A stretch of 64,000 nt of DNA from Solirubrobacterales bacterium (GTDB taxonomy: Bacteria > Actinomycetota > Thermoleophilia > Solirubrobacterales > Solirubrobacteraceae). The notes under the pieces are model-generated. The model worked only from the letters and a program-made list of their open reading frames with translations. It had not been told where the DNA came from and did no database searches. This document shows, piece after piece, positions 11,224 through 43,030 of the stretch; within the stretch, counting starts at the first letter, position 1; each line of letters begins with the position of its first letter. Where the stretch lies: NCBI GenBank assembly GCA_019241635.1, contig JAFAWR010000116.1, forward strand, positions 1 to 64,000. Direction: 5' to 3'. Position numbers and translations under genes: made by a program.

Positions 11224-12864
11224 TTGGCGCTCATAGACCGGCGCATCGGGATCCTGTTCATCGCGTTCGTGGCGTTGCTCGGGATCGCGCTCGCGCGCGC
11301 GGCCTACCTTGGGTCGGTCCGCGCCGGATCGCTTGAACGCGATGCCGCCACCCAGCAGGTGAGCAACGTGATCGTCCCGGCTCCGCGCGGCGCGATCACC
11401 GATCGCAGCGGTGCCGAGCTGGCGATCAGCGAGTCGGCCGATGACGTCGTCGCGGATCCCTACCTGATCAAGAACGCGGTGTCAGCCTCGGCGGAGCTGG
11501 CATCGGCGCTGAACATGCCGCAGCTGACCGTGCTCAGCCGGATCACCCGAGCGCACACCGGCTACGTCCTCCTCGCCCACCTGGTCCCCTCGGCGCAGGC
11601 CGCGGCGATCGGAAATCTGCACATCGCGGGCATCAATCTGGTTCCCCAGACGCGCCGGGTCTATCCGCGCGGCGTCGAGGCGGCGCAGGTGGTCGGCCTG
11701 GTGCATGGCAACGGCATGGGCGCCAGCGGCATCGAGTACCGGTACAACAACGTGCTCGAGGGCACGAATGGCCTTCGCCGGATCGTCAGCGACGCCATCG
11801 GACAGGCGATCTCGATTGATGACCTCCGCCCGACCGATCCCGGCAAGACCGTGGCGCTGACCATCGATTCGGGGCTTCAGCAGGAGGTCGAGAGGGTGCT
11901 CACGCGAGTCGGGAGCATCTACTCGCCCAAGAGCGCCACCGCGATCGCGGTCGACCCGAGGACGGGCGCAATCCTCGCGCTGGCCAACTGGCGCTCCCAG
12001 GCCGCCGACAGCTCCGCCGGCCCCGACGACTTGGCCATCGGCCTCAACTACGAGCCGGGGTCGACGTTCAAGGCGATCACCGTGGCGGGCGCCCTCCAAG
12101 ACCAGCTGGTGACCCCGACCACGCCGTTCGACATCCCACCGGTTCTCCAGTTCGCCGATCGCCAGATTCACGACGCCGAGTCGCACGGCTACGAGACGCT
12201 GAGCGTGGCCAACATCCTCAAGTACTCGAGCAACATCGGCGCCGACCTGATCGGCCAGAAGCTCGGCGCCGCGCGCTTCAACTACTGGGTGCGCCGGTTC
12301 GGGTTCGGCTCGCCGACCGGCGTCGACCTGCCCGGCGAGCAGAGCGGCATCGTCCTGCGTCTGTCGCAGTACTCGGGCTCGTCGATGGCCAACCTACCGT
12401 TCGGCCAGGGGGAGTCGGTCACCCCGATGCAGATGGTCGCCGCCTACGACGCGATCGCCAATGGGGGGATCCTGCGCCCGCCGCATGTCGTCCAATCGGT
12501 GGGCGGAAAGACCCAACCGCTCCCGGCCGGGCACCGGATCATCTCGCCGACCACGGCCTCCGAGCTGCGCGACATGCTCCGCGGCGTGTTCGCCGACGGC
12601 GGCACGGCGTCCGGCGCCGAGATCCCCGGCTACGACATGGCCGGCAAGACCGGAACCGCGAACATCGCCATCGACGGCCATTACTCCGACAGCGCGTACG
12701 TCGCCTCGTTCATCGGGATGGTCCCCACCGACCATCCGCGGCTGCTCGTCGCGGTCGTGGTCAACCAGCCGCAAGGATCGATCTTCGGCGGCTCGGTGGC
12801 CGCACCGGCGTTCCAGCAGATCGTCGGCTGGGCGGTGCCGTACCTCGGGCTGCCGCCGCGCTAG
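11224..12864 (+). CDS. ftsI: Peptidoglycan transpeptidase FtsI (PBP3-like)
   Basis: TTG start; N-terminal TM; active-site STFK in [17 protein letters not shown] in [16 protein letters not shown] in [12 protein letters not shown]. Confidence 0.93.
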
Positions 12865-14429: not shown

Positions 14430-15956
14430 TCAGAGGCCGCGCCCGGTCAGCACGTGGGGAACGGTCCGGAAGAGCAGCTTCAGATCGGTCCAGAGCGACC
14501 AGTTGGCGACGTACAGATAATCGATGGCGACCATCTCGTCCAGCGGGACGCGGCTCGAGCCGAGCACCTGCCAGTGACCGGTGATGCCCGGCGTCAGCTC
14601 GAGCCGGCGACGATGCCATCCTTCTACCCGCCGGTCCTCCTGGGGGATGAGCGGCCGCGGGCCGACCAGGCTCATCTCGCCCCGGACGACGTTCAGCAGC
14701 TGCGGTAGCTCGTCGAGGTTCGTGCGACGCAGGACGCGGCCCACACCGGTGATTCGCGGGTCATCGGGGATCTTGAAGAAGCCCTCGGCAGCCTGGTTGT
14801 GCGCCTCGAGGCCCGCCTTGCGCTCCTCGGCGTCGACCACCATCGAGCGGAACTTGAGCAGCTTGAACGATCGCCCATCGCGCCCGACACGCTCCTGACG
14901 AAAGAACACCGGGCCGGGGGAGGTCAGCTTTAGGAGCAGCCCGATCGCGGCCAGCAACGGCGAGAGGGCGATCAGCGCGACCGACGCGCCTGAGATATCG
15001 AACACCCGCTTGAGCAGCCGCGACGAGCGCGAGAGGCTGAATGCGCGCACGCCGAGCACTGCGATGCCGTGGACGTCATCGAATTCGACCGCCGAACCGA
15101 CGACCTGGAGCATTGCCGGGATCACGCTGACCCGAACGCCGATCGCGCCGAAGGTCCGCATGAGGTCGAGCGCGTCCCCGCCGCCCGCGGCGTGCGGCGC
15201 GATGATCACCCGCTGAACCTTCAGCTTGCGCACGAGTTCGCGCGCGTCCGCGAGTGAGCGTTCGGCCACCGTCGGCGCGGCCCAAGATGAGGCCTGGTGG
15301 AGCTCGATCTGGGCGACGAGCTTGGCGTTCGTGGCGTAGTCGTTCTCGACCTTCTCCCCGAACCGGAGCGCCTCCTCCAAGGGCCCTATGAACAGACAGC
15401 GCTCGGGCGGCGTGAGCTGCCCGGCCAGTCGCCGCGCGGCGGTGCGGCCGGCGATCAGGCCTCCATACAACACCAGGAAGAGGGCAATCGCCTGACGAGG
15501 GCCGAGGATGCCGTCGAAGATGAGCGGACTCAGCGTCAGGGCGAGAAACGAGAGCAGCGCGGCCAGTTGCAGGAGGGTCGGGAGCTCGTCGAGCGTCGAC
15601 TTGTGCAGGCGAGCCTGGTCTCGGTCATAAAGCCCGAGAATCTTCGCCACCGCCGGCGCGAGGACCACGAGCAGCGCACTTTGGACGGTCAGGTGGGTCG
15701 TCTTGCCGAGCGCCGCGGCCGCGAGCACGCCGATCGCGCAGGCCAGCATGTCGCCGGTCGACAGGAGATATCGGTAGCGCGCCTCGCGAGCATTCAGGTC
15801 GACGGGCCAGGCGGATTCCCCCGCCGGCTCCAGTTCCCGAACGGCCGGAAGCGCGAGGTCGCGCGTGCGTCGCTCAGGGGATGCGTGCCGATCGCGGGCG
15901 GCCTCCTCAAGGGCGTGGTGATCGTGTGGTCGCTGAAGAACCTGCTGCGCGTCCAT
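14430..15956 (-). CDS. Exopolysaccharide polyprenyl glycosylphosphotransferase (sugar transferase)
   Basis: Multi-TM N-terminus, C-terminal bacterial sugar transferase domain: RVFDISGASVALIALSPLLAAIGLLLKLTSPGPVFFRQERVGRDGRSFKLLKFRSMV...LRRTNLDELPQLLNVVRGEMSLVGPRPL. Confidence 0.93.
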   Translation of the reverse strand: MDAQQVLQRPHDHHALEEAARDRHASPERRTRDLALPAVRELEPAGESAWPVDLNAREARYRYLLSTGDMLACAIGVLAAAALGKTTHLTVQSALLVVLAPAVAKILGLYDRDQARLHKSTLDELPTLLQLAALLSFLALTLSPLIFDGILGPRQAIALFLVLYGGLIAGRTAARRLAGQLTPPERCLFIGPLEEALRFGEKVENDYATNAKLVAQIELHQASSWAAPTVAERSLADARELVRKLKVQRVIIAPHAAGGGDALDLMRTFGAIGVRVSVIPAMLQVVGSAVEFDDVHGIAVLGVRAFSLSRSSRLLKRVFDISGASVALIALSPLLAAIGLLLKLTSPGPVFFRQERVGRDGRSFKLLKFRSMVVDAEERKAGLEAHNQAAEGFFKIPDDPRITGVGRVLRRTNLDELPQLLNVVRGEMSLVGPRPLIPQEDRRVEGWHRRRLELTPGITGHWQVLGSSRVPLDEMVAIDYLYVANWSLWTDLKLLFRTVPHVLTGRGL

Positions 15957-16301: not shown

Positions 16302-17267
16302 CTACTTCCCGCGGCGGAGCGACTGGTCGATCGCTCCATGCTGCTGCTCGATCCGTCGCAGCACGCGCGCCAACGCCTCCTGGAGCGGCCACAACCGAGC
16401 GGCGCCTGCCAGGCGCAGCAGTTGCTTCATGGACGCGGCAGCGGCCGCATAGGCGCGCGGGCGGCGTGTGAGCCGCACGACATCCGATACCGGCCGCGGA
16501 AGGTCGCGGGCGTAGTAACCAGCCTGCGGCGCCGGTACGGTGTCGGGATGAAAGCGTGGCATCAACACCGCTGCCGCGCCCTGGCTGCGCGCATCGCGCA
16601 CGAAACTGTCGAGTGTGCGTTCGTGGAGATGTGCACTTGACAGGTGACGGTCGAATGTTCCACTCAGTCCCGCCTCGAGACACCGAATACCGAAGTCTCG
16701 ATCGGCGTGGTAATGCTCCGTAAAGCCGCGATTCGACATACCGATCGCCAGACAATCGCTGCGACGCATGGAGAAGTTACCTCCCCACAGGTCTCGCACG
16801 ACGCTTTCGGCATCCCGCTCGTAGATATCGCAGCGCCCCTCGTACGCGCTGGCGTACAGCCGGAGTGCAAAGTCGTCGGATGTGCGGCGGTCAGGCACGG
16901 CCACGGGCATATAGCCGACGACGATGTCGGCCGCCCGCTCGGCGTGACGGCGGGCATGCCCAGACACCAGCCCGGGATGGGCAACGACGTCGTCGTCGAT
17001 GAACAGCACGACCTCGCCGCCCGCGGCTTGGGCGCCCGCCTCGCGCGCGCCCATATCACCGCGGTTCTCGATGAACAGCGCGCGCAGCCGGGGCTCGTCC
17101 TCGGCCAGGCGGTCGACGAGTTCCTTCGAGCCGTCGCGCGACCCGTCGATCACCACGATCAGCTCGCTGGTGGCGGGGTCGTCGAGGAGCGGACGCAGGA
17201 CCCGCTCGAGCAGCCCCGCGCCGTAGTAGGTGGGGACGACGACCGAGATGCTCGGATACTCAGCCAT
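16302..17267 (-). CDS. Family 2 glycosyltransferase (paralog of 20725-21687)
   Basis: MAEYPSISVVVPTYYGAGLLERVLRPLLDDPATSELIVVIDGSRDGSKELVDRLAEDEPRLRALFIENRGDMGAREAGAQAAGGEVVLFIDDDVVAHPGLVSGHARRH. Confidence 0.88.
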   Translation of the reverse strand: MAEYPSISVVVPTYYGAGLLERVLRPLLDDPATSELIVVIDGSRDGSKELVDRLAEDEPRLRALFIENRGDMGAREAGAQAAGGEVVLFIDDDVVAHPGLVSGHARRHAERAADIVVGYMPVAVPDRRTSDDFALRLYASAYEGRCDIYERDAESVVRDLWGGNFSMRRSDCLAIGMSNRGFTEHYHADRDFGIRCLEAGLSGTFDRHLSSAHLHERTLDSFVRDARSQGAAAVLMPRFHPDTVPAPQAGYYARDLPRPVSDVVRLTRRPRAYAAAAASMKQLLRLAGAARLWPLQEALARVLRRIEQQHGAIDQSLRRGK

Positions 17268-17352: not shown

Positions 17353-18327
17353 GTGCCGCGAACACGCCAGGGGACATCGCTGGTCGCGGGCGCCGCGGTG
17401 GCGCTGGCGCTTCTCGCCCTCACCGGCTGTGGCTCGACGACCCTGTCGGGGACAGCGACCGCGCCGACCACGCCGACCGCGACGACCGCGCCCACCACGC
17501 CAACTACGTCGACGTCTGGGCAGACATCCTCGACCCGGCCGTCGATGTGGGAGCGCCCCGCGCTCGTGCATCCGCAGACGATCATGATCTCGTCCGCCAA
17601 CCACGACCTCAAGCTCTCGCAGTCGCAGGACTATGTGCTGCGCTGCCAGCCCGGGACCGTCGCTCTGGATTCGCGGCTCGTGGTGTGGGGAGGGCATGAC
17701 GTCGAGTTCGAGGACTGTCACCTGCATGTCACCCAGCCCGACTGGGCGGCATACCTGCAGCGCCAGACCGGCACGCTGTGGGTGCACGACGTGTACTTCG
17801 GCGGAAGTCACCTGACCGGCGGGATTCAGATGCAGGAGCCGGGCGCCACGGTCGTGATGCGCGACGTTCTTTTCGACCGCGTCTATGGCTCCTACAAAAC
17901 CAACCATGCGGAGCTGCTTCAGACCTGGTGCGGGCCGACGCGTCTGCTCATCGACGGCCTGACCGGATCGACCACGTACCAGGGCCTGTTCATGCTCCCC
18001 AACCAATGGTGCTCGACGCCGATTTCGGTGTTCGATCTGCGCCACATCAACATCGACGACTCGCAGGGCGCCGTCGCGCTGTGGCTGGGGGATGTGAACG
18101 GCGGTATGTCGGCCATGCGGCTGAACCTGCGCGATGTGTATGTCGAGCCGAATAGCGGCCGGAAGTGGCGCGGATGGTGGTTGTGGCCGCAGCCGCCAGC
18201 GGGTACCTGGTCTCCGGTCATCGCCGGCGCGCCACCCGGCGGAACGTTCGTGCAGTCGAGCTCGACGGGGGCGCAGGGCGTCGACGAGAACTCGGCGCCC
18301 GAGGCGCTGCCCGGCGAGCAGAACTAG
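17353..18327 (+). CDS. Putative beta-helix-like lipoprotein, paralog 1 of 3
   Basis: GTG start; lipobox-like LLALTGCGS; Thr/Pro linker; core ...DYVLRCQPGTVALDSRLVVWGGHDVEFEDCHLHV...GTLWVHDVYFGGSHLTGGIQMQEPGATVVMRDVLFDRVYGSY... Confidence 0.72.
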   Translation: MPRTRQGTSLVAGAAVALALLALTGCGSTTLSGTATAPTTPTATTAPTTPTTSTSGQTSSTRPSMWERPALVHPQTIMISSANHDLKLSQSQDYVLRCQPGTVALDSRLVVWGGHDVEFEDCHLHVTQPDWAAYLQRQTGTLWVHDVYFGGSHLTGGIQMQEPGATVVMRDVLFDRVYGSYKTNHAELLQTWCGPTRLLIDGLTGSTTYQGLFMLPNQWCSTPISVFDLRHINIDDSQGAVALWLGDVNGGMSAMRLNLRDVYVEPNSGRKWRGWWLWPQPPAGTWSPVIAGAPPGGTFVQSSSTGAQGVDENSAPEALPGEQN

Positions 18328-18455
18328 CGCAGGCGCGCAGGCCACCGTTTCGACGGTGTGCAGACGTCACGAAACCTGCCAATACCCGACCGCGGACCTG
18401 TCGGCGTTCCGACCGTGCCCTTGCACTGTTAGTCGCTCTTGGCGGAAAATCTGGC

Positions 18456-19373
18456 ATGGCGAAGCAAACCGGACCGGCGGCGCTGTCGCTGATCGGCCTG
18501 CTCTCGTGCCTCGCGCTGTGGATGGCGCCATACACAACGGCGACTACGACGCCGGCGCCCGTCTCCCCGACCGCGGGCCCGCCCATTCACTCGGCATGGA
18601 ATGAGCCGGCGCTGGGCGAGCCGATCACGATCACGATCAGCGATGCCGATCGCAACCTCAAGCTCGACCGAGCTAAGGACTACATCTTGGACTGTCCTTC
18701 GGGCAGGGTGCCCCTGAGCTGGCCGCTGGTCGTGTGGGGCGGGCGCAACGTGGTCTTCCAGGACTGCGACATCGACGTGACGATCCGGAACTGGGCTGCC
18801 GCATTCAAGAACCAGGCCGGGACGCTGTGGGTGCACGACGTGCATTTCGGCGGAGGACGGTTGACGGGCGGCATCCAGCTGCAGGAGCCCGCGGCCACCG
18901 TGGTATTGCGGGACGTGCTGTTCGACCGCGTTCACGGCTCCTTCCACGCCCACCATGCCGAATGCCTCCAGACCTGGGCGGGGCCGCGACGGCTCCTCGT
19001 CGACGGCTTCACCTGCCCGACGACCTACCAGGGGGTGTTCCTGCTGCCGAACCAGCTCGACCACGGCCCGGCGCCGGCCATCTTCGATCTGCGGCACATC
19101 GACGTCGACGACTCCCGCGGCGCCGTGGCCCTCTGGCTGGGCGACGTCACCGGTGGACTCTCGGCGGTACGGCTCAACCTGCAGGACGTCTACGTCGTGC
19201 CGAACCCGGCGCGAACCTGGCGCGGCTGGTGGCTCTGGCCACGGGCCGGGATCTGGAACGGCGTGCGCGCCGGCCCGCCGCCCGGCGGCCATTACGTCCA
19301 TCCTGCTGCGGCGGGCGCGAGCGGGATCGACGAGGGCGTCTCGCCCGTCCCGCTGCCGCGCGAGCTTCCCTGA
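18456..19373 (+). CDS. Putative secreted beta-helix-like protein, paralog 2 of 3
   Basis: N-terminal hydrophobic segment ALSLIGLLSCLALWMAPY; core ...GTLWVHDVHFGGGRLTGGIQLQEPAATVVLRDVLFDRVHGSFHAHHAECLQTWAGPRRLLVDG... Confidence 0.72.
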   Translation: MAKQTGPAALSLIGLLSCLALWMAPYTTATTTPAPVSPTAGPPIHSAWNEPALGEPITITISDADRNLKLDRAKDYILDCPSGRVPLSWPLVVWGGRNVVFQDCDIDVTIRNWAAAFKNQAGTLWVHDVHFGGGRLTGGIQLQEPAATVVLRDVLFDRVHGSFHAHHAECLQTWAGPRRLLVDGFTCPTTYQGVFLLPNQLDHGPAPAIFDLRHIDVDDSRGAVALWLGDVTGGLSAVRLNLQDVYVVPNPARTWRGWWLWPRAGIWNGVRAGPPPGGHYVHPAAAGASGIDEGVSPVPLPRELP

Positions 19374-19489
19374 GCGTCCGCGCCGGGAGGCGGACGAACG
19401 TCCGGCCCGACTGGTGGTAGCGGTCGCACAAACGTCTGTTCCGCTCGGACCGCCTCGGCCCTGGACCCGGAACGCTCGATCTCAAATGC

Positions 19490-20728
19490 ATGGACGCAGA
19501 GCATCCAGTCCCTGGACGCGACCCCGATCCGCGAAACCGCCCGCGTCAGCCCGCCCGGCTGACCGTGCGCTGGACGCTGATCGCGCTCGCCGTCGGCCTG
19601 TGCCTGCTGATCGTGAGTGGCGGCAGGGGGCGCGCGGCACCGAAGGCTGAGCGCGCCTCCACCCCCGGCGCCGCACTCGTAGCGCAGCGCGCCAGCCGGG
19701 CGTCTCGCCCGGAATGCCCATCGCCTCGTCGCCCGTCCCGGGGCGGAAAGCCCCGCGGCGCCCGCTGCCGCAAGCCGGAGAAAGACAACAAGAAGCGGGC
19801 GACGGCGCGCAAGAAGCCCGCACCCAAGAAGCCGGCGCCGAAGGCACCGGCGCCCGCCGCCGCATATCCGCGCGCCAATCCGCCGGCCGCCCCGCCGGCG
19901 ACTGCGCTCGAGCCGAGCCAGCCGGCCGGCGTCTCCGCCTGGGCCCCGCCCGCACTGACCAACCCGACGATCGTGACGCTGAGCGATTCCAACCGATCGG
20001 TCAAGTTGAATCAGTCGCAGGACTACATCGTTCGCTGCCCGCCCGGTCAGTTCGACGTCTCGGGCCGGATCAACATCTGGGGCGGTCACAACGTCGTGTT
20101 CGAGAACTGCAACGAGTATGTGACGAATCCCACAGGTGACTGGGCGGGTTACCTCCAGAACCAGACCGGAACGTTATGGATACATGACGTGCACTTCGGC
20201 GGCGCGCACCTCACCGGCGGCGTGCAGTTCCAGGAGCCTGGAGCCACCGTCGTGATGCGCGATGTGCTGTTCGACACCGTGTATGGGTCGTACCAGACCA
20301 ACCACGCCGAGTGCGCGCAGACCTGGTCGGGGCCGGCGCGCTTCCTGATCGACGGCCTGCAGTGCTCCACGACGTATCAGGGCCTGTTCCTGCTCCCGAA
20401 CCAGTGGGACTCGACGACGCTCGAGACGACGTGGGACTTCCGCAACGTCCAGATCAATGGCGACGGCGCGTTTGATCTCTGGCTCGGCGACGTGCAGCCA
20501 TCGAACCTCGGCTCGCTGCCGGCGTTCAACCTTCAGAACGTGTACGACTGCGGATCGGGCGAGCCGCGCGATTACGACGGCACGTCCGACAACAACCAAG
20601 CGTGGGCGGGGGTGAAATCGTGTCCGGCCGGCGGCGTGAGCCCGTTCGTCTGGTCGAATGCAGACGGCAGCGTGAGCGGCCGAGACGACGGCGTGGCGCC
20701 CGCAGCCCTCGTCGGTGAGCAGCCCTAG
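19490..20728 (+). CDS. Putative surface beta-helix-like protein with Lys/Pro/Ala linker, paralog 3 of 3
   Basis: N-terminal TM (WTLIALAVGLCLLIVSGG); linker KPEKDNKKRATARKKPAPKKPAPKAPAPAAA; core ...GTLWIHDVHFGGAHLTGGVQFQEPGATVVMRDVLFDTVYGSYQTNHAECAQTWSGPARFLIDGLQCSTTYQGLFLLPNQWDS. Confidence 0.75.
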   Translation: MDAEHPVPGRDPDPRNRPRQPARLTVRWTLIALAVGLCLLIVSGGRGRAAPKAERASTPGAALVAQRASRASRPECPSPRRPSRGGKPRGARCRKPEKDNKKRATARKKPAPKKPAPKAPAPAAAYPRANPPAAPPATALEPSQPAGVSAWAPPALTNPTIVTLSDSNRSVKLNQSQDYIVRCPPGQFDVSGRINIWGGHNVVFENCNEYVTNPTGDWAGYLQNQTGTLWIHDVHFGGAHLTGGVQFQEPGATVVMRDVLFDTVYGSYQTNHAECAQTWSGPARFLIDGLQCSTTYQGLFLLPNQWDSTTLETTWDFRNVQINGDGAFDLWLGDVQPSNLGSLPAFNLQNVYDCGSGEPRDYDGTSDNNQAWAGVKSCPAGGVSPFVWSNADGSVSGRDDGVAPAALVGEQP

Positions 20729-21687
20729 CCGCGGCCAGCCGCCGGCGCCGAGGCGCCTGCTGCGAGCCCGATCTGGATGCCCCGCTGGACTTCGAGCCGG
20801 TCGAGCAAAGCCGCGACCCGCCGCTCCACCGGCCACAGATGGAGTCGCCCGGCCACGGTGAGCGAGAGCAGCGTTACTACGCGCAGGGCCCGATAACCCC
20901 GTCGCCGAGTGGCGAACCGTGCCACCGCGGCGCCCACTCCGCGCTTACGCCACACCGGAAAGCGAGCCTGTCCCGGGTGCAGGCGCTCGAGAGTTACCAG
21001 ATCCTCGCCGAAGATCCGCGAGGTCTGCACGAACCCGCCCACCGTCTGCTCGAAACGGTGCTCCGCGAGGAGTGTCCGGTCAAATACGGGTTCGACCTCC
21101 ACCTCCGCCGCAGCCAGCCGGAGGCCCATCTCCATGTCCTCTCCGTATCGGATTCCGGCCCCTGCGTCGCATCCGCCGGCGGCGAGAAGGGCTCGGCGGC
21201 TCACCGAGACGTTGCCCATCCACAGGCGGCGGAGGATCTCGGATGGATCGTGTTCGTATGACCTCGCGGCGAGCTCGTACTGGTGGGCGTAGCGCTCGAC
21301 GACGAACGATCCCGGCCGCCGCGGTCCGACCACCGGCGGCATGTAGCCGACGACGAGCCGGTCGCGGCCATCGGCGTGATGACGGGCGTGGCCGCTGACC
21401 AGACGTTCGCCTGCGACGACGTCCGCGTCGAGCAGGAGCAGGACGTCGTAGCGGACGCGCTCGAGGCCGAACTGCCGGGCGCCCGCCCGTCCGCGGTTCT
21501 CGATCCAGAACGGTCGTACCCGATCGTCGTTGCGGGCTATCTCCAAGAGCAGCTCCAACGAGCCGTCACGCGACCCGTCCACCACTACGACGACCTCACC
21601 GGTTGCCTCGTCGCGCAGGAGGGGGGCCAGCGTTTCCGACAACAGCGGGCCGTCGTTGTAGGTGGGGATGAGGACCGAGATTTGCAT
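20725..21687 (-). CDS. Family 2 glycosyltransferase (paralog of 16302-17267)
   Basis: MQISVLIPTYNDGPLLSETLAPLLRDEATGEVVVVVDGSRDGSLELLLEIARNDDRVRPFWIENRGRAGARQFG...LLLLDADVVAGERLVSGHARHH. Confidence 0.88.
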   Translation of the reverse strand: MQISVLIPTYNDGPLLSETLAPLLRDEATGEVVVVVDGSRDGSLELLLEIARNDDRVRPFWIENRGRAGARQFGLERVRYDVLLLLDADVVAGERLVSGHARHHADGRDRLVVGYMPPVVGPRRPGSFVVERYAHQYELAARSYEHDPSEILRRLWMGNVSVSRRALLAAGGCDAGAGIRYGEDMEMGLRLAAAEVEVEPVFDRTLLAEHRFEQTVGGFVQTSRIFGEDLVTLERLHPGQARFPVWRKRGVGAAVARFATRRRGYRALRVVTLLSLTVAGRLHLWPVERRVAALLDRLEVQRGIQIGLAAGASAPAAGRG

Positions 21688-22603: not shown

Positions 22604-24037
22604 ATGAGCCAGGTCCTGCGGAGGTTCGCGGTACTCGGCGCGAGCAGCATGTTCACTCAGCTGATCGCGTTCGTGGCGCTTGCGATCGTCGCGCGGCGGG
22701 TCGGCCCGTCGAACCTGGGTTCTTACACCGTAGCGCTCAGCATCGTCGCGTTCCTCTCGCTCCCGATCTCTCAGGGCATGACGATGGTCGGCGTTCGGGA
22801 CGTTGCCCGCGACCGCGGCCGGGCCAGAGCCGTCACCGGAGAGGTGCTGCTGCTCCAGCTGGCGTTGGGTGTCCCCGCCTATCTGGTGTTAGTCGCGCTG
22901 TCCGGCGTGATCGCTCCGAACAAGACCATGGAGAGCCTGATCCCGGTCGTCGGCCTGTTCCTATTTACAGCGACCAGCTTCGAGTGGACGCTGCAGGGGC
23001 TCGGCCGCATGCAGGAGATCGCCGTGGCACGAACGGTCGGACAGGTGGGCTACGGCGTGGCCGTCCCGCTGCTCGTCGGTCCGGGCCTGGCGGGAATCCA
23101 AACGTACGCGTGGCTGATGGTCGGCGGTCTCGCGCTGAAGCACGTCCTGACGGTGGCATTCCTGGTGCGCGATGTGGGGCGGCCGGAGCTCCGGGTGTCC
23201 GCCGGCGCGCTGCGGCGTCGGATGCGCGGGAGCCTCGCGATGGGCTACGCGTCGGTGATGGGGCAAATCTACGGCACGATCGACCAGATCATGCTCGGCT
23301 ATTTCTCGACCGCCTACGACGCTGGTCAGTACGCCGCCGCCTATCGCATCCCGAACGCGGTAGGGACATTCTCAAGCTCATGGCTGTCCGCCCTGTTTCC
23401 CCACAATGCCGAGCTCGCGGAGAAGAATCCGGCCAGGCTGCGGGCTGACGCGGGACGGATGCTCTCGGTCGTGGCGCTGTTCGCGATTCCACTCATGGCC
23501 TGCACGCCCTTCATCGCTCATGAGCTGATGGTGGCGGCGTTCGGCAGTGAGTACGGCCCAGCGGCCAGCGCGTTCGCCCTGCTTATCGTCGGCACGGCGT
23601 TGTCGATCGTGGACAGCACGCTCATGTCGATGCTGATGGGACTGGGACGCGATCGCTTCTACGCGTTGGTCCTCACGGTGACCGCGCTGTTTAACGGGCT
23701 GGCAAATCTGGCCGTGATCCCTGTGTTCGGCCGAAACGGCGCCGCGATCGTGACAATCGTCTCCGAGCTCGTTGCCTTCACGCTCGTGGTCCACGGCGCA
23801 CAGCGGGCGCTCGGCGGGCTGGAGCCTGAATGGGGTCGCCTCGGGCGCATCGTCCTCGCCGCTGCCGGCGCGGTCGTTGTCCTAGTTCTGATGCCGGCTA
23901 CGGTGTCGGTCTGGGTGCTGATCGCCATCGGGGTGGCGGTCTACGCGCTAGCCGGGCTGCTCCTCGGCACCGTCAGCGGGGCTGAGCTCCGCGCGATCTT
24001 CTCGAGGCCGAGTCCGATCAACGAGCCCGCAACCTAG
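22604..24037 (+). CDS. Polysaccharide flippase (Wzx-like, MOP superfamily)
   Basis: MSQVLRRFAVLGASSMFTQLIAFVALAIVARRVGPSNLGSYTVALSIVAFLSLPISQGM...; polytopic Wzx-type sequence. Confidence 0.88.
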   Translation: MSQVLRRFAVLGASSMFTQLIAFVALAIVARRVGPSNLGSYTVALSIVAFLSLPISQGMTMVGVRDVARDRGRARAVTGEVLLLQLALGVPAYLVLVALSGVIAPNKTMESLIPVVGLFLFTATSFEWTLQGLGRMQEIAVARTVGQVGYGVAVPLLVGPGLAGIQTYAWLMVGGLALKHVLTVAFLVRDVGRPELRVSAGALRRRMRGSLAMGYASVMGQIYGTIDQIMLGYFSTAYDAGQYAAAYRIPNAVGTFSSSWLSALFPHNAELAEKNPARLRADAGRMLSVVALFAIPLMACTPFIAHELMVAAFGSEYGPAASAFALLIVGTALSIVDSTLMSMLMGLGRDRFYALVLTVTALFNGLANLAVIPVFGRNGAAIVTIVSELVAFTLVVHGAQRALGGLEPEWGRLGRIVLAAAGAVVVLVLMPATVSVWVLIAIGVAVYALAGLLLGTVSGAELRAIFSRPSPINEPAT

Positions 24038-29273: not shown

Positions 29274-29357
29274 ATGACAAAGCAACATCTTGCCCTCGCG
29301 CAGATACGAGCATCCTCCAATCCAGGTGAATCGCGACCCGTGGAGGCGCGCCGATGA
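29274..29357 (+). CDS. Possible 27-aa leader ORF overlapping the Wzz-like start (ATGA)
   Basis: ATG 29274: MTKQHLALAQIRASSNPGESRPVEARR*; TGA 29355-29357 overlaps ATG 29354. Confidence 0.35.
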   Translation: MTKQHLALAQIRASSNPGESRPVEARR

Positions 29358-30892
29358 GTTTGAGCACCCCAGCCCGCAGCCGGCGGGTCGGACGGTCGGT
29401 CCTACCCCTGCGCCGGCTCTGGATCGTGCCGGTGTCAATCGTCGTCGTGGCGGCGATTGCGTACGCGGTGGCCGGCCTGCAGTCGGCGACCTACAGCGCG
29501 CAGTCGGCAGTCGTGGTCACGTCCGCGTCCGGGCCGGTCGCCGGCGGCAATCCGAACGCGAGCAACCTGGCGGCAACCTATTCCGGGGCGCTGCCCAACG
29601 ATACGACGCTTCAGAGCTACCTTGCCAAGACCGCGCACGTGAAGCCGATAGGCGCGATCACCGCGCCGCCCTCCAAGGGTTCGGTGGTCACCCTGCAGTT
29701 CTTCGCCAGCACGCGGAAGGCGGCGGTGGCCGGGGCCCGGGCTATCGCCCGCGGTCTCAGCGCGTCCAAGCCGGCCAGCTCCGTGGTGTCACCCGGGACG
29801 CTCAAGGTCGTGCAGGATCCGTCGGTGGCCACGCCCAACCCCGCTGCCGCAGCGGCTGCCGCGTCGGGCACGGCGCCGGCCACCCCCCAGCCGCCATCGC
29901 AGGCAGATCCGTACATGGCCCAGGTGGTACTGATCGTGCCGGCGGACGCCGGGGGCCCCAGCATCGGCATCAATCCGTCCGACGCCGACAAGCTGGCCAC
30001 CACCTACGCCGGGATCATCCCCTCCGACGACACGCTGCTGCGCGATGTCGGCAAGGCGGTCGGGCAGTCGCCCGCCCAGGTGGCGCAGAACCTGACCGTA
30101 GTCAACACGCAGAACACCTCCATTCTGCAAATCAGCTTCAAGGCGACCGATCCGCGCGTGGCGACCGAGGGCGCCCGCTCGGCAGCGAGCCTGCTGGCCG
30201 GTGCCAGTCCGGTCGCGGCGGGAATCGTCCCGTCCTCGCTCCAGATCATCTCGCTGCCCAGCCCCGTCGCGCCGGCGGCGACGACGCAGAAAAGCCGTAC
30301 GGTGGCGATCGGAGCCGTACTGGGCCTGATCCTCGGGATCGTGCTGCTCGTCGCTTGGGAACGCTCGGATCCGCGCGTAACCGACGCCCGCTCGCTCTCC
30401 AACCAGTTCGGGTGCCCGGCCACGCCGGCCGACCGCCTCTCGGTCGATGCCGCTCACGCCATGCTCGAGCGGTGGGCCTCGCTGACCGATCACGTCCCGG
30501 CCCGCGTGGCGATCCTGCCGGCCGACGGGGCGTCCGTGCAAGAGGCAGACGAAGTGACGCGGCTGCTCGCGCGCTCGGGGCACGGCGTTCGCTACGTCGA
30601 CGCTCGCACGGGCGCGCTGCCTGCGTCGCTAACCAACGGTCACGAGTACGACGGCGACGAGTCGGTCGTGCTCGTGCACGCCGCGCCGCCCGGAATGGGA
30701 GGCGAGGCCGTGGCGCTGAACTGCGATCTGACTGTCGTCGTGGTCCGCAGCGGCGCCCGCAATGCAGAGGTCCGGCGCATGTCGGAGGAGCTGGCCAACT
30801 TTGGCCTGGTGCCGGCGTGGGCGCTGCTGACGCCGCGCGGTGGACAGGTTGCTACGCACGACCCGTCGCTCGTCGGTGCAGTCTCCGCTTGA
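29354..30892 (+). CDS. Wzz/chain-length-determinant-like membrane protein
   Basis: Two TM segments flanking an extracytoplasmic domain (LWIVPVSIVVVAAIAYAVAGLQSATYSAQSAVVVTS ... SRTVAIGAVLGLILGIVLLVAWERSDPRV) and a cytoplasmic C-terminal region. Confidence 0.8.
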   Translation: MSLSTPARSRRVGRSVLPLRRLWIVPVSIVVVAAIAYAVAGLQSATYSAQSAVVVTSASGPVAGGNPNASNLAATYSGALPNDTTLQSYLAKTAHVKPIGAITAPPSKGSVVTLQFFASTRKAAVAGARAIARGLSASKPASSVVSPGTLKVVQDPSVATPNPAAAAAAASGTAPATPQPPSQADPYMAQVVLIVPADAGGPSIGINPSDADKLATTYAGIIPSDDTLLRDVGKAVGQSPAQVAQNLTVVNTQNTSILQISFKATDPRVATEGARSAASLLAGASPVAAGIVPSSLQIISLPSPVAPAATTQKSRTVAIGAVLGLILGIVLLVAWERSDPRVTDARSLSNQFGCPATPADRLSVDAAHAMLERWASLTDHVPARVAILPADGASVQEADEVTRLLARSGHGVRYVDARTGALPASLTNGHEYDGDESVVLVHAAPPGMGGEAVALNCDLTVVVVRSGARNAEVRRMSEELANFGLVPAWALLTPRGGQVATHDPSLVGAVSA

Positions 30893-32627
30893 CGGCACGC
30901 GCCTCGGGCTCGGGGGGCAGCAACTGGCATCCGTCTCGTCGTTCGGTGGCGCGGAGCCGCTGCGGCTTCCATTCGACGTCCAGCGCTATCACCTGTTCCT
31001 AGCCGCGGTGGCGGCCGTGGCGATGGCGCTGGTGGCTGCGGCCACCGGGCTCTCGCCGCTGGTCGGCCTGGCGCTGATCGCCGCGATCGCCGTGGCCTTC
31101 GCGGTCGCGCTGAACGAAATGATCGGGCTGGTGCTCCTAGCCGCCCTGGCCCCGGCCTGCGCCGGCCTGGCGCGAGGCATCCCCGTCCCCGGCTTCCGCT
31201 TCTCGGAGGTGCTGATCGGCGGTGTCGGGGTGATCCTCCTGGTCTCAGCCCGTCGTTTCGTGCGCTGGACGGCGCTCGACTGGATGGCCCTGCTCTACGC
31301 GGTGGCGACCCTGTGCATCGGGGGTTGGGATCTGCTCTCGCAGGGCCAGCACATCAACCGGGGCGAGCTCGACACGCTGCTCGGCCCGCTCCAGTTCCTG
31401 CTGCTCTATCGCGCGACCGCGGTGACGGCGCGGACGCCGGAGCGCCGGCGCCTCGCCCTGAGGGTGATGCTGTGGGCCAGCCTTCCGGTCGCGCTGCTCG
31501 CGCTCGGTCAGCAGTTCAACCTGCCGGGCATCCGCAGCCTGATCGTGACCCTGACCGGGAACGATGTGTATTCGGCGGGCGACAGCGCCGCCCGGGTCAC
31601 CGGCCCGTTTCCGCTCTGGCACAACCTGGCCGGGTACCTGCTGATGTACCTGCTCACGATCGCCGCGTTGCTGCTCGGCGGCGTGACCGACGTGATGAGG
31701 CGCAGCTTCCTGATCCTGATCGCGTTGATCGACGCGGCAGCACTGCTCGAGACGCTCAGCATCGCGCCGATCATCGCTCTGGTGGCCGGCGTGGCGATCC
31801 TGGGGGTTTGGTTCAAGGGGATCACGCGCGTGTTCGCCGGCCTGGCCGTGGTGATCGTGGCGGGTCTTCTGCTGTTCGGCGCGCGGATCGACGCGCGCGT
31901 GACGCAGGAGTACGGGCGTGCCCCCGGTACGCAGGGATCGGCGCTGGTCCCGTCGACGATCCAGTACCGCTACGACCTGTGGACGAATGAGTTGCTGCCC
32001 GCCCTCAAGGGCCACGTGACCACCGGGTACGGCCCGGTGCTGCCGGCGCAATTCGCCAATTTCCCCTGGACCGAGTCGCTGTACGTCAACCTCCTCTATC
32101 GGGGCGGAGTGATCCTGGTGGTGATCTTTCTCGGCCTCGCGACCACGATGATCGCGGCCGGCTTCGCGGCGCGGCGCGACCGCGACCCGCTCCAGAAAGC
32201 GCTCGGGGCCGCGGTGGTGGTGGGCGCACTGTCGCTCGTCGTGATCGGGCTGATCGAGTCTTACTTCACCGACGACGGCCCTCCGCAGGTGCTCTGGATG
32301 CTGCTCGGGCTGCTCGCTTTCCGGGATGCCGTTCCGATGAGCGCCTACGCGAGCCGGGTGCACGACGCGGTCAACCGTCGCGCCTGGGCGAGCAACGTGG
32401 CGATGGCGCTCGAGACGCTCGATCCCGGAAGTCAGGATCTGCTGCGGCTGTCCTACCAGCACGGGCTGAGCGACGATGAACTCGTCGGCGTGCTGCGACT
32501 CAGTGACGAGGCGATCGTGGAGTGGCGGAGCGCTGCGCTCCAACGCGTGGCCCTGCGGGCCAACATGAGCCCGCCCGCGGTGGAACGAGTGCTGCGCACG
32601 CAAGAGCCATCGGCCGTGATGACATGA
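30876..32627 (+). CDS. O-antigen ligase/polymerase-like polytopic membrane protein with sigma-70-region-4-like C-terminal segment
   Basis: Multi-TM, O-antigen-ligase type (WHNLAGYLLMYLLTIAALLLGG...; YGPVLPAQFANFPWTESLYVNLLYRGGVILVVIF); C-terminus LETLDPGSQDLLRLSYQHGLSDDELVGVLRLSDEAIVEWRSAALQRVALRANM. Start uncertain (GTG 30840 or 30876). Confidence 0.8.
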   Translation: MQSPLDGTRLGLGGQQLASVSSFGGAEPLRLPFDVQRYHLFLAAVAAVAMALVAAATGLSPLVGLALIAAIAVAFAVALNEMIGLVLLAALAPACAGLARGIPVPGFRFSEVLIGGVGVILLVSARRFVRWTALDWMALLYAVATLCIGGWDLLSQGQHINRGELDTLLGPLQFLLLYRATAVTARTPERRRLALRVMLWASLPVALLALGQQFNLPGIRSLIVTLTGNDVYSAGDSAARVTGPFPLWHNLAGYLLMYLLTIAALLLGGVTDVMRRSFLILIALIDAAALLETLSIAPIIALVAGVAILGVWFKGITRVFAGLAVVIVAGLLLFGARIDARVTQEYGRAPGTQGSALVPSTIQYRYDLWTNELLPALKGHVTTGYGPVLPAQFANFPWTESLYVNLLYRGGVILVVIFLGLATTMIAAGFAARRDRDPLQKALGAAVVVGALSLVVIGLIESYFTDDGPPQVLWMLLGLLAFRDAVPMSAYASRVHDAVNRRAWASNVAMALETLDPGSQDLLRLSYQHGLSDDELVGVLRLSDEAIVEWRSAALQRVALRANMSPPAVERVLRTQEPSAVMT

Positions 32628-33589: not shown

Positions 33590-34710
33590 GCGTGGCAACG
33601 ATCGACAACGAACCGGTGGCCCTGGTCCACGACTACCTCCTGGTGCTGCGCGGCGCCGAGCGGACGTTTGCTGCGATGGCCGACATGTGGCCGCAGGCGC
33701 CGGTGTACACGCTGCTCTACGACCGCGAGGGAACCGAGGGCCGGTTCAGCGGACACCCGGTCACCACCTCGGTCCTGCAGCGTACCGGCGTCACCCAGAG
33801 CGACTTTCGCAAGCTCCTGCCGCTGTTTCCGCTCGCGGTCGAAGGCTTTGGCATCCAAGAGCGGTCTGTCATCGTCTCGAGCAGCAGCGCGTTCGCCCAC
33901 GGGGTGCACGCGCCGGAGGGGGCAGTGCACGTGTGCTACTGCCACACCCCGTTCAGATACGCGTGGTTCGAGCGCGAGCGGGCGATGTCCGAAGTGTCGC
34001 CCGCCCTCCGCCCGGCCCTCGGGGGGGTCCTGGCCGCCATCCGGCGCTGGGATGTGAAGGCCGCGGGGCGGGTGACGCGTTACGTCGCCAACTCCCGGCA
34101 CACGCAGCGGCGGATCCGTGAGATCTACGGGCGCGACTCAGCGATCGTTCACCCGCCGGTCGAGGTGGAACGATTCCGGTCCGGCGAGCCGGACGACTAC
34201 TTCCTGGCCGTCACCGAGCTCGTGCCCCACAAGCGGATCGACCTCGCCGCGCAAGCGGCCAGCGAGGCCGGCCAGCGCCTGAAGGTCGTGGGGGGCGGAC
34301 CCGAACTGCCGCGCCTGCGGGAGAAATACCGCAAGCGGGTCGAGTTCCTCGGTCGCGTCGAGGACCAGGAGCTCGTCGATCTCTACGCCAACGCGCGCGC
34401 CCTGGTCCTGCCCAACGTCGAGGAGTTCGGGATCGCGGCGGTGGAGGCGCAGGCCGCTGGACGCCCGGTGATCGCGGCGGCGGCCGGGGGCGCGCTCGAG
34501 ACCGTACGCGAAGGTATCACCGGACGGCTGGTGCCCCCGGATGACGCCCCCGCGCTCGAACGCACGCTGCGCGAGTTCAACGCCCGCGAGTTCGACACCG
34601 GCGTCATCCGCCGGCACGCGGAGCAGTTCTCGGCCGCCGCATTTCGCGAGCGCTTCAGCCAGCAGGTCCAGCAGGCGCTCGAGACATCGTCGGCCTGGGC
34701 TGCCGCGTGA
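33586..34710 (+). CDS. GT4-type glycosyltransferase
   Basis: VALVHDYLLVLRGAERTFAAMADMWPQAPVYTLLYD...HTPFRYAWF...VPHKRIDLAAQAASEAGQRLKVVGGGPELPRL...VLPNVEEFGIAAVEAQAAGRPVIAAAAGGALETVREGITG. Confidence 0.92.
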   Translation: MSVATIDNEPVALVHDYLLVLRGAERTFAAMADMWPQAPVYTLLYDREGTEGRFSGHPVTTSVLQRTGVTQSDFRKLLPLFPLAVEGFGIQERSVIVSSSSAFAHGVHAPEGAVHVCYCHTPFRYAWFERERAMSEVSPALRPALGGVLAAIRRWDVKAAGRVTRYVANSRHTQRRIREIYGRDSAIVHPPVEVERFRSGEPDDYFLAVTELVPHKRIDLAAQAASEAGQRLKVVGGGPELPRLREKYRKRVEFLGRVEDQELVDLYANARALVLPNVEEFGIAAVEAQAAGRPVIAAAAGGALETVREGITGRLVPPDDAPALERTLREFNAREFDTGVIRRHAEQFSAAAFRERFSQQVQQALETSSAWAAA

Positions 34711-35687
34711 GGAAGCCCGAGCGCATCTTCCTTGCCGCCTCCGCCGGCGGGCACCTCGATCTGCTCAGGGTGCTCGCCCCGCAGGTCCTGGACGGCGCCG
34801 AGCCCGTGTGGGTGACCTCGCGGACACCGCGCGGGGAGGCCCTGCGGAGCACGGCGTCCGATGTGGAGCTGCTGCAGGAGTTCGGCCGCAGCCCGCTCCG
34901 GGCCGTAGCAAACCTGGTCGGGGCGGCGCGGCTGGTCCTCCGGCGCCCCCGCATCGTGGTCAGCTCGGGCGCGGGCGTGGTGGCGCCGTTCTGCCTGCTG
35001 GCGCGCCTGGCCGGCGCCCGCCTGGTCTACGTCGAGACCATGGCGCGGGTCAACAGTCCGAGCAAGACCGCCCGGCTGCTCTCCCGGTTCGCCGCCCGGG
35101 TCGTCGTGCAGTGGCCCGAGCTGGCGCCCGCGCTGCCGCGGGCCGTGGTGTGCCGCCCGACGCTGCTCGAGAACCTCGTCGAGGGCGGATCGCCGGACGG
35201 ATCGGGAACGTTCGTCGCCGTCGGCACCCATCGCCAGCCTTACACCCGGCTGCTCGGCATCGTGAGCCGGGGGATCGAGGACGGGCTGCTGCCCGACCCT
35301 GTCCTCGCCCAGGTCGGGCCAGCCCGGTGGACCGCGCCCGGGGCGCAGGCGAGCGCTCACCTGCGCCGGGACGAGCTCGAAGCGGCCGTCCGCACGGCCG
35401 CGGTGGTGGTCTGCCACGGCGGGGCCGGGATCATCGCCTCCGCGCTCGCGGCCGGGCGGCGACCGATCGTGGTCCCGCGCCGCGCCGCCCTGGGTGAGCA
35501 CGTGGACGACCACCAGTACCAGCTGACCCGCAAGCTCGCCGATTGGGGGCTGGTCGTGGCGGTCGAGGACCACCTGACCGCCGCCGACGTCGAGGCGGCC
35601 CGGGGCCCGCTGCGCGTGCCGGCGGAGCTGAGCGAGCGGCCCACCGCCGCCGCGGTCCTCCGGTCCGCCCTGGCCGAGCTGGCGTGA
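34707..35687 (+). CDS. Alg14/Alg13-like (PssD/PssE-like) fused glycosyltransferase
   Basis: N-terminal IFLAASAGGHLDLLRVLAPQVLDGAEPVWVTSRT...RPRIVVSSGAGVVAPFCLLARLAGARLVYVETMARVNSPSKTARL (Alg14-like); C-terminal VVVCHGGAGIIASALAAGRRPIVVPRRAALGEHVDDHQ (Alg13/GT28-like). Confidence 0.85.
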   Translation: MRKPERIFLAASAGGHLDLLRVLAPQVLDGAEPVWVTSRTPRGEALRSTASDVELLQEFGRSPLRAVANLVGAARLVLRRPRIVVSSGAGVVAPFCLLARLAGARLVYVETMARVNSPSKTARLLSRFAARVVVQWPELAPALPRAVVCRPTLLENLVEGGSPDGSGTFVAVGTHRQPYTRLLGIVSRGIEDGLLPDPVLAQVGPARWTAPGAQASAHLRRDELEAAVRTAAVVVCHGGAGIIASALAAGRRPIVVPRRAALGEHVDDHQYQLTRKLADWGLVVAVEDHLTAADVEAARGPLRVPAELSERPTAAAVLRSALAELA

Positions 35688-37192
35688 GTTCCGGCGTGGT
35701 TCGCTCCTGGCCGGCAAGTACGCTGCCCGTCGTGCGCCTAGACCGACTGCTGCCTGACGATACGCCCGGTCGGGCCGGCGCCGTGGAGATCGCCGGCCTG
35801 GCCTACGACAACCGCCTCGCTGCACCGGGGACGTTGTTCTTCTGCGTCCCCGGGTTCACCCGCGACGGCCACGATTTCGCTCCCGACGCGATCGCCCGCG
35901 GCGCGGCGGCGCTCGTCGTCGAGCGCCCGCTCGGGCTGGGGGTCCCCGAGGTGCGGGTGGCCAGCGTGCGGGCGGCGATGGCCCCGGCGGCGGCCGCGTT
36001 CTACGGCGACCCGACGGCCGGGCTCGAGATCGTCGGCGTCACCGGCACGAACGGCAAGACCACAACCGCGTTCCTGGTCCAGGCCCTGCTCGAGGCTGAC
36101 GGACGCCAGACCGGCCTGCTCGGCACGGTCAAGAGCGTGATCGGCGGCGCTGAGCGGGGCGTCGAGCGCACGACACCGGAGGCGATCGAGCTGCAGCGGA
36201 CGTTCCGCGAGATGCTCGACGCGGGCGACGTGGCCTGCGCGATGGAGGTCTCCTCGCACGCGCTCAAGCTCCACCGCGCCGACGCGATTCACTTCGCCGC
36301 GGCGATCTTCACCAACCTGACCCAGGACCACCTGGACTTCCACGGCACGATGGAGGACTACTTCGAGTCCAAGCGGCGCCTGTTCGAGCCAGGGCGGGCC
36401 CGGCACGCGGTGGTCAACCTCGACGACCCGTACGGTGCCCGGCTGGCCGACGAGCTGGGCCGGGGGGGACCGATCGTGACCTTCGCGGTCGACCGCGAGG
36501 CCGACTACCGCGCCGCCGGCCTCCAGACCAGCCTCGGCGGATCGCGCTTCACCGTGCATGGGCCCGACCGGGAGATTGAGCTGTCCTCGCCGCTCCCGGG
36601 GCGCTTCAACGTCTACAACGTGCTCGGCGCGCTGGCCGCCGTGCGCGCGCTGGGCGTCTCGCTGGACACCGCGGCCGCGGCGATCGAAACCGCGGGTCAC
36701 GTCCCCGGCCGGTTTCAGCCGGTCGACGCCGGCCAGGCGTTCGCGGTGCTGGTCGATTACGCCCACACTCCGGACTCGCTTCAGAACGTGCTCCAGGCGG
36801 CACGCGGGTTGCTCGCCGATGCCGGTCAGGGCGGCCGCCTGCACGTGGTGTTCGGCTGCGGCGGCGACCGTGACCGCGGCAAGCGGCCGCTCATGGGGGA
36901 GATCGCCGCCCGCCTGGCCGACCGGGTGATCGTCACCTCGGACAACCCCCGTTCGGAGGATCCGGAGGCGATCGTCCGCGAGATCCTTACGGGCGCGGGA
37001 GATCGGGTGGAGCACGACGTCGACCGCCGCCGCGCGATCGCCAGCGCGATCGCGGGCGCGCGGCCGGGCGACGTGGTGGTGATCGCGGGCAAGGGCCATG
37101 AGCAGGGCCAGGAGTTCGAGGGCGGGCGGAAGATCCCGTTCGATGACGTGACCGTCGCGCGCGAGGCCCTGGGTGGCGCGCTCGCCGCATGA
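35684..37192 (+). CDS. murE: UDP-N-acetylmuramoyl-tripeptide synthetase MurE
   Basis: GLAYDNRLAAPGTLFFCVPG...IVGVTGTNGKTTTAFLVQALLEADG...TNLTQDHLDFHGTMEDYFESKRRLF...DYAHTPDSLQNVL...GCGGDRDRGKRPLMGEIA...SDNPRSEDPEAIVREIL. Start ambiguous: GTG 35684 or GTG 35732. Confidence 0.93.
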   Translation: MSSGVVRSWPASTLPVVRLDRLLPDDTPGRAGAVEIAGLAYDNRLAAPGTLFFCVPGFTRDGHDFAPDAIARGAAALVVERPLGLGVPEVRVASVRAAMAPAAAAFYGDPTAGLEIVGVTGTNGKTTTAFLVQALLEADGRQTGLLGTVKSVIGGAERGVERTTPEAIELQRTFREMLDAGDVACAMEVSSHALKLHRADAIHFAAAIFTNLTQDHLDFHGTMEDYFESKRRLFEPGRARHAVVNLDDPYGARLADELGRGGPIVTFAVDREADYRAAGLQTSLGGSRFTVHGPDREIELSSPLPGRFNVYNVLGALAAVRALGVSLDTAAAAIETAGHVPGRFQPVDAGQAFAVLVDYAHTPDSLQNVLQAARGLLADAGQGGRLHVVFGCGGDRDRGKRPLMGEIAARLADRVIVTSDNPRSEDPEAIVREILTGAGDRVEHDVDRRRAIASAIAGARPGDVVVIAGKGHEQGQEFEGGRKIPFDDVTVAREALGGALAA

Positions 37193-39918: not shown

Positions 39919-40025
39919 GATCCCGTCCCCCTTCGCGTGGTCGTGGCTTCAGTCATGGTCGAACCCCCTGGTTGCGTTGTGCATCTGCGGATCGCCACGC
40001 TAGGTCCCGGCCTCGGATCGCGAAT

Positions 40026-40078
40026 CGGTAATCGGGTACCGAACCTGACCCGGCCCACGGTTCGGTAGCTCGTTACCG
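40026..40078. promoter_or_regulatory. Two CGGTA-N6-TACCG palindromes within a larger inverted repeat
   Basis: cggtaatcgggtaccg (40026-40041) and cggtagctcgttaccg (40063-40078); larger arms 40024-40045 and 40059-40080 are reverse complements except for the central 5 nt. Confidence 0.7.
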
Positions 40079-40114
40079 ATGCTCGGGCGCCCCCGGGCTG
40101 CCAGGCTGCGGGGC

Positions 40115-40321
40115 ATGTCGGAGGATCACTTCGAGGACGCGGCGCAGGAGCTCCCGTTCGCGTACGCGGTGGCGCTGCGTCTGGCCCGCAGCGGCGCCGC
40201 TGACGAGGTGATCGCGCAGGCGCTCGGGATCGAGCCGGCCGGCGTCCCCGCCGCGCTCGCGTTGGCGCGGGCCAAGCTCGCGGCAGTCGAAGCCGGGCAC
40301 GAGGAGTGGAAAGTCCACTGA
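40115..40321 (+). CDS. Small sigma-region-4-like HTH protein
   Basis: MSEDHFEDAAQELPFAYAVALRLARSGAADEVIAQALGIEPAGVPAALALARAKLAAVEAGHEEWKVH; HTH-like spacing. Confidence 0.6.
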   Translation: MSEDHFEDAAQELPFAYAVALRLARSGAADEVIAQALGIEPAGVPAALALARAKLAAVEAGHEEWKVH

Positions 40322-40338
40322 CGCAGGGCAACCGGCGT

Positions 40339-43020: not shown

Positions 43021-43030
43021 GCTTGGCCAG

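Follow-up and report, generated by a model that had tools for sequence, protein, structure and literature searches.

Three predicted β-helix proteins of a fast-diverged clade encoded in a polysaccharide cluster of a Solirubrobacterales bacterium

RbmB, a parallel β-helix protein encoded in the biofilm matrix cluster of Vibrio cholerae, is a VPS lyase that cleaves VPS (PMC11637428). The β-helix is also the fold of the PL6 alginate lyases, among which BcelPL6 has the Lys/Arg pair Lys-249/Arg-270 (PMC6879350), and of the AlgE/AlgG mannuronan C5-epimerases, where AlgE uses the catalytic set Y149/D152/H154/D178 and His/Tyr chemistry (PMC8824271). For the colanic-acid protein WcaM, considered as a further β-helix analogue, a literature search returned nothing usable. 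In the 64,000-nucleotide stretch of DNA analysed here (the window), three consecutive genes that, like the RbmB gene, lie among exopolysaccharide genes encode predicted secreted β-helix proteins. Together with a fourth paralog of the same genome they form one fast-diverged clade in which the conserved acidic positions of their family have been replaced, which is the main new point of this analysis. The relevant features are as follows.

14430-15956, minus strand: bacterial sugar transferase (Bac_transf; initiating phosphoglycosyl transferase), at the left end of the polysaccharide cluster
16302-17267, minus strand: GT2a, a GT2 glycosyltransferase, divergent partner of paralog 1
17353-18327, plus strand: β-helix paralog 1 (fold predicted), 324 aa, GTG start; predicted lipoprotein with lipobox LTGC and Cys26, Thr/Pro/Ser linker, core from residue 64
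18456-19373, plus strand: β-helix paralog 2 (fold predicted, AlphaFold2 pLDDT 86.4), 305 aa; N-terminal signal/TM segment, short linker, core from residue 46
19490-20728, plus strand: β-helix paralog 3 (fold predicted), 412 aa; N-terminal TM/signal segment, basic Lys/Pro/Ala linker, core from residue 149
20725-21687, minus strand: GT2b, a GT2 glycosyltransferase and paralog of GT2a, convergent with paralog 3 and overlapping its end by 4 bases
22604-24037, plus strand: Wzx-type polysaccharide flippase
29354-30892, plus strand: possible Wzz-like polysaccharide co-polymerase, named from position and an N-terminal TM segment, with no Pfam match
30840-32627, plus strand: Wzy-type polymerase/O-antigen ligase-like protein (Wzy_C, below the Pfam cut-off)
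34707-35687, plus strand: Alg14/GT28-like glycosyltransferase, homologs of which accompany family members in several actinobacteria

The three paralogs are located between the two GT2 genes of a 21-kb Wzx/Wzy-type polysaccharide cluster (14430-35687), which reads, in order, initiating sugar transferase, GT2, the three paralogs, GT2, FkbM methyltransferase, Wzx, several GT4, a GT47-like gene, the putative Wzz-like gene, Wzy, a methyltransferase and Alg14/GT28. As in the case of RbmB, the proteins are thus encoded within a polysaccharide synthesis cluster, with Bac_transf, Wzx, Wzy and glycosyltransferases around them. The cluster is flanked by ftsI (11224-12864, named from sequence) and murE (35543-37192, named by Pfam), and lies inside a division/cell-wall gene cluster. 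In three relatives (G011, G015 and G035) ftsI directly adjoins murE, and in the close relative G023 a gap of about 1.6 kb holds unrelated small genes only, for which reason the polysaccharide cluster looks acquired in the source lineage, with the caveat that the source assembly is a draft, 75% complete and with 4.7% contamination. Further along, murE and murF are separated by three functionally unassigned genes, at 37219 on the minus strand and at 40306 and 43031 on the plus strand (region 37219-44215), a departure from the usual division/cell-wall order.

An initial sequence-only reading had described three consecutive plus-strand paralogs with a common core, and this description is confirmed: the core motif that it quoted is present in all three, and core identity is 61% between copies 1 and 2 (BLASTP E=3e-116) and 48% between copies 2 and 3 (BLASTP E=9e-78), far above chance. 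The start of paralog 2 is the ATG at 18456; a longer mechanical open reading frame from 18165 would overlap paralog 1. The same reading had assigned three different surface anchors to the three proteins. The N-termini do differ, and that of copy 1, with its clean lipobox LTGC and Cys26, is clear, but the anchors of the other two, likewise predicted from the sequence, are less certain: copy 2 has a signal/TM segment and also a marginal lipobox-like LLSC, and in copy 3, which has no lipobox, a TM or signal segment precedes a Lys/Pro/Ala linker with a net charge of about +21. The fourth paralog (G000:C186:40703-41584) is located outside any recognisable polysaccharide cluster. At this locus (L005:7539-8588 on the same contig) there is no ATG, GTG or TTG between the in-frame stop and the hydrophobic N-terminal segment, which may mean that the start is unusual, that the sequence contains an error or that the copy has lost its signal.

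The β-helix fold proposed in the sequence-only reading is supported by prediction. AlphaFold2 models of copy 2 (pLDDT 86.4, core mostly above 90) and of a relative from Lentisphaerae (pLDDT 92.6) are both single-domain, all-β helices with coils of about 24 residues each, and this predicted coil-by-coil arrangement places the proteins in the right-handed parallel β-helix fold class; the handedness is suggested by the Foldseek matches. Searched against the PDB with Foldseek, neither model gave a match with E≤0.001, and the weak matches obtained are almost all right-handed β-helix polysaccharide lyases, glycosidases and tailspikes. The best TM-scores were those of the PL6 lyase 7o77 (0.45) and the Klebsiella K1 capsule lyase 7w1c (0.43), neither with a significant E-value. 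PL6 lyases (7o77, 7o84 and 7dmk) are among the best matches, with TM-scores of 0.35-0.45 and no significant E-value, and the RbmB structures 9ozd and 9ozl are among the weak ones, with Foldseek E-values of 1.8 or worse and no sequence match.

The proteins belong to an unnamed carbohydrate-related β-helix family. It is called unnamed because sequence searches of Pfam, NCBIfam, PHROGs and the PDB gave chance matches only; Pfam searches with 40 family members at E≤0.1 likewise gave nothing beyond chance families. The Foldseek matches were left out of the assignment, since none reached E≤0.001. A profile search of the core, which the sequence-only reading had proposed as a check, thus matched no characterised family. 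The family differs from PL6 lyases in lacking both a Pfam match and the conserved Lys/Arg pair, and a PL6-type Lys/Arg lyase site was rejected, as the family has no invariant Lys and R113, R155 and R181 are lost in the window copies. With the AlgE/AlgG epimerases the family has the β-helix in common, again with no Pfam match, and an epimerase site of the DPH type was rejected as well: the conserved residues are those of HA[DE]xxQ and YQG, there is no conserved DPH motif, and the AlgE residues Y149/D152/H154/D178 have no counterpart in the same arrangement. A relative on a Skermanella mucosa plasmid (L098:11842-13728), annotated as calcium-binding, combines the β-helix with a C-terminal glycine/aspartate-rich region of calcium-binding-type repeats, the same layout as in AlgE epimerases.

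The family was not reached from the window proteins directly. A single-sequence search of 60 relatives and a scan of public genomes with a window-only profile returned nothing outside the source genome, and the wider family was found only after distant relatives from two genomes of the same family had been added to the profile. No close relatives were present in 27 genomes of the same genus; among 146 genomes of the same family there were two clear cases (G256 and G296, three copies each) and one weak match (G684). With the G256 and G296 members included, the profile identified 26 loci in public genomes, spanning Cellulomonas, Actinotalea, Pseudokineococcus, Quadrisphaera, Pseudonocardia, Acidothermaceae, Euzebyaceae, Lentisphaerae, Planctomycetota, Verrucomicrobiota and one Acidobacteria contig, and more members were found on viral contigs, in a Microcystis phage and on two Skermanella plasmids. 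The distribution is therefore patchy (Cellulomonadaceae, other Actinomycetota, PVC bacteria, Skermanella plasmids and phage tail modules), most members found being chromosomal. Profile searches of phylum samples returned almost nothing, which argues that the family is rare rather than overlooked. Identity is nevertheless roughly 40-55% between members from Cellulomonas, Lentisphaerae and planctomycetes. Three weak matches (L009, L011 and L012) were dropped as low-complexity or partial; L010 looks like a genuine member cut by the contig end.

All four copies of the source genome carry the marks of the family, i.e., the W-x-x-P start, the GG[RH]NVV coil, HA[DE]xxQ(T/S)W and YQG, with minor variation (GGHDVE in copy 1). 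At other positions they depart from it consistently. In a comparison with 43 relatives (numbering of copy 2), three acidic positions present in every relative are replaced in all four copies, E127 by His, the acidic E/D138 by Gly and D169 by Glu. Also replaced in all four are H125 (42 of 43 relatives) and R113 (40 of 43) by Trp, Q150 (40 of 43) by Val and R155 (36 of 43) by Leu, and R181 (38 of 43) is Leu or Met in the window clade. Even three more divergent relatives, two from Skermanella and one from a Microcystis phage, retain E127 and the H-x-D motif. The alternation of the strands would place the replaced residues together in one groove. Trp makes up 4.4% of the window-clade cores compared with at most 3.4% in 42 relatives. 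The clade has gained W94, W113 and W125, and also the pair C80/C104, which, being one coil (24 residues) apart, likely forms an inter-coil disulfide. All four copies retain H167, Q172, W174, D183, Y191 and Q192.

The four copies group as a single clade in the tree (support 100/100); the stem leading to it measures 1.26 changes per site, and the branches within it are shorter. The long stem and short inner branches indicate that one ancestral copy diverged strongly, became fixed and was then duplicated, and replacement of the conserved acidic positions in each of the four copies marks the window clade as a diverged subfamily. Our present data do not lend support to the lyase/epimerase-like catalytic site that had been envisaged for these proteins, since the conserved acidic and arginine residues are replaced in all four copies; judged from the sequences, the proteins are better read as binding proteins or as having a changed activity. 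Tryptophans are typical of carbohydrate-binding faces, and their gain, combined with the loss of acidic positions found in all relatives, argues against a plain lyase or epimerase label.

We therefore tentatively favour, without ranking it as probable, the explanation that a carbohydrate-active β-helix enzyme has been repurposed into surface-anchored polysaccharide-binding proteins. In the source lineage, a soil-type actinobacterium, one ancestral copy would have lost the conserved acidic and basic residues of the family, acquired tryptophans and, probably, a disulfide, and been duplicated afterwards. The three genes and the fourth copy would encode secreted, single-domain β-helix proteins held at the cell surface, which would have given up the ancestral chemistry and would serve to bind and arrange the exopolysaccharide that the surrounding Wzx/Wzy cluster produces, a lipid anchor, a membrane anchor or a basic linker setting them at different depths of the envelope. 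Two observations count against binding: the fourth copy is not in a polysaccharide cluster, and the kept residues H167, Q172, D183, Y191 and Q192 could still support chemistry of the His/Tyr type.

The latter observation leads to the explanation ranked next, which we consider possible and rather doubtful, namely that the copies have retained enzymatic activity towards the local polysaccharide, as lyases, hydrolases or epimerases, and that their active site has been reshaped to accept another substrate, probably a less acidic one. In that case the base and acid could be H167 and Y191, and the lost arginines would have bound uronate carboxylates. His/Tyr chemistry has precedent in AlgE epimerases (PMC8824271), as does a β-helix enzyme in a polysaccharide cluster in RbmB (PMC11637428). 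Against continued catalysis stand the loss from all copies of the three acidic positions invariant in the 43 relatives, and the lack of a PL6-type Lys/Arg pair and of the AlgE/AlgG DPH motif.

The genomic context of the wider family bears on the proposal, made at the outset from the sequence, that the proteins are surface components acting on or binding the locally made polysaccharide. Its surface and polysaccharide parts gain from the cluster context, from fusions of family members to L-type lectin-like, CBM4_9, CBM35-like and malectin domains, and from the anchoring of relatives, which by eye also varies (lipoprotein-like, TM-anchored and secreted members); it is the lyase/epimerase-like site that found no support. 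Of 16 actinobacterial loci, 9 (L039 and L053 among them belonging to one and the same cluster) have two or more homologs of the window polysaccharide genes within 8 kb, so that the placement of the paralogs beside polysaccharide genes, noted at the outset, recurs in other actinobacteria. Alg14/GT28, GT4, Wzz-like and Wzy genes often occur together at actinobacterial loci, and a GT2a homolog is divergent beside a family member in the window, in G256, in G296 and in Pseudokineococcus (L052). At the PVC loci, regulators of AraC/LacI or GntR type are found in the vicinity of the gene, and two of the loci checked have a GH10 or GH42 neighbour. Cellulomonadaceae (L035, L038, L040, L041 and L053) have up to four family copies per cluster, one TM-anchored clade lying inside the polysaccharide cluster and secreted copies carrying long C-terminal repeat domains.

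Since polysaccharide genes repeatedly accompany the family in actinobacteria that are unrelated to one another, and since members are fused to carbohydrate-binding domains, it is unlikely that the copies are structural proteins of the envelope or matrix, such as adhesins or spacers, that bind no specific carbohydrate and are linked to the cluster through shared acquisition on one island. Island acquisition would fit the absence of the cluster between ftsI and murE in relatives, and the position of the fourth copy is in agreement with a purely structural role, as is the fact that β-helices also act as adhesins, e.g., PfbA, one of the weak Foldseek matches.

Absent from Pfam, NCBIfam and PHROGs and without a relative of solved structure, the family is a good candidate for a new carbohydrate-active family, because its sequence is kept across distant phyla and it occurs beside polysaccharide-making and polysaccharide-degrading genes and in phages; its conserved residues, moreover, can be put to the test. 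The window copies are a natural experiment in which the scaffold is kept and the acidic set replaced, and a side-by-side comparison with a Cellulomonas member could tell binding and catalysis apart. A fuller scenario, which we regard as speculative, is that an unnamed family of carbohydrate-active β-helix enzymes, common to polysaccharide-synthesis clusters, degradation loci and phage tails, has in one lineage given rise to catalytically dead, Trp-rich lectins whose differing anchors would retain the exopolysaccharide of the cell itself at several levels within the envelope.

Phage tailspikes and capsule depolymerases are among the weak fold matches (7w1c, 9k4a and the P22 tailspike), and some family members occur in phage tail modules; unlike tailspikes, the window copies are chromosomal, short and predicted to be surface-anchored, and have no PHROG match above chance. 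A phage origin, e.g., as domesticated tail proteins that once recognised a host polysaccharide, could draw on the member in a Microcystis phage and on those in phage contigs, where terminase, portal and tail genes accompany them. It is nonetheless very improbable, given that the surroundings of the window copies showed no recognisable phage genes, that the window clade is separate from the phage members in the tree and that most members found are chromosomal. The phage members either have no PHROG match or are annotated as hypothetical. On the phage contigs (L063, L066 and L067) they lie beside tail genes or between the terminase and portal genes, and the member in Microcystis phage Mae-JY30 (L096:7989-8810) is located at the end of the late region.
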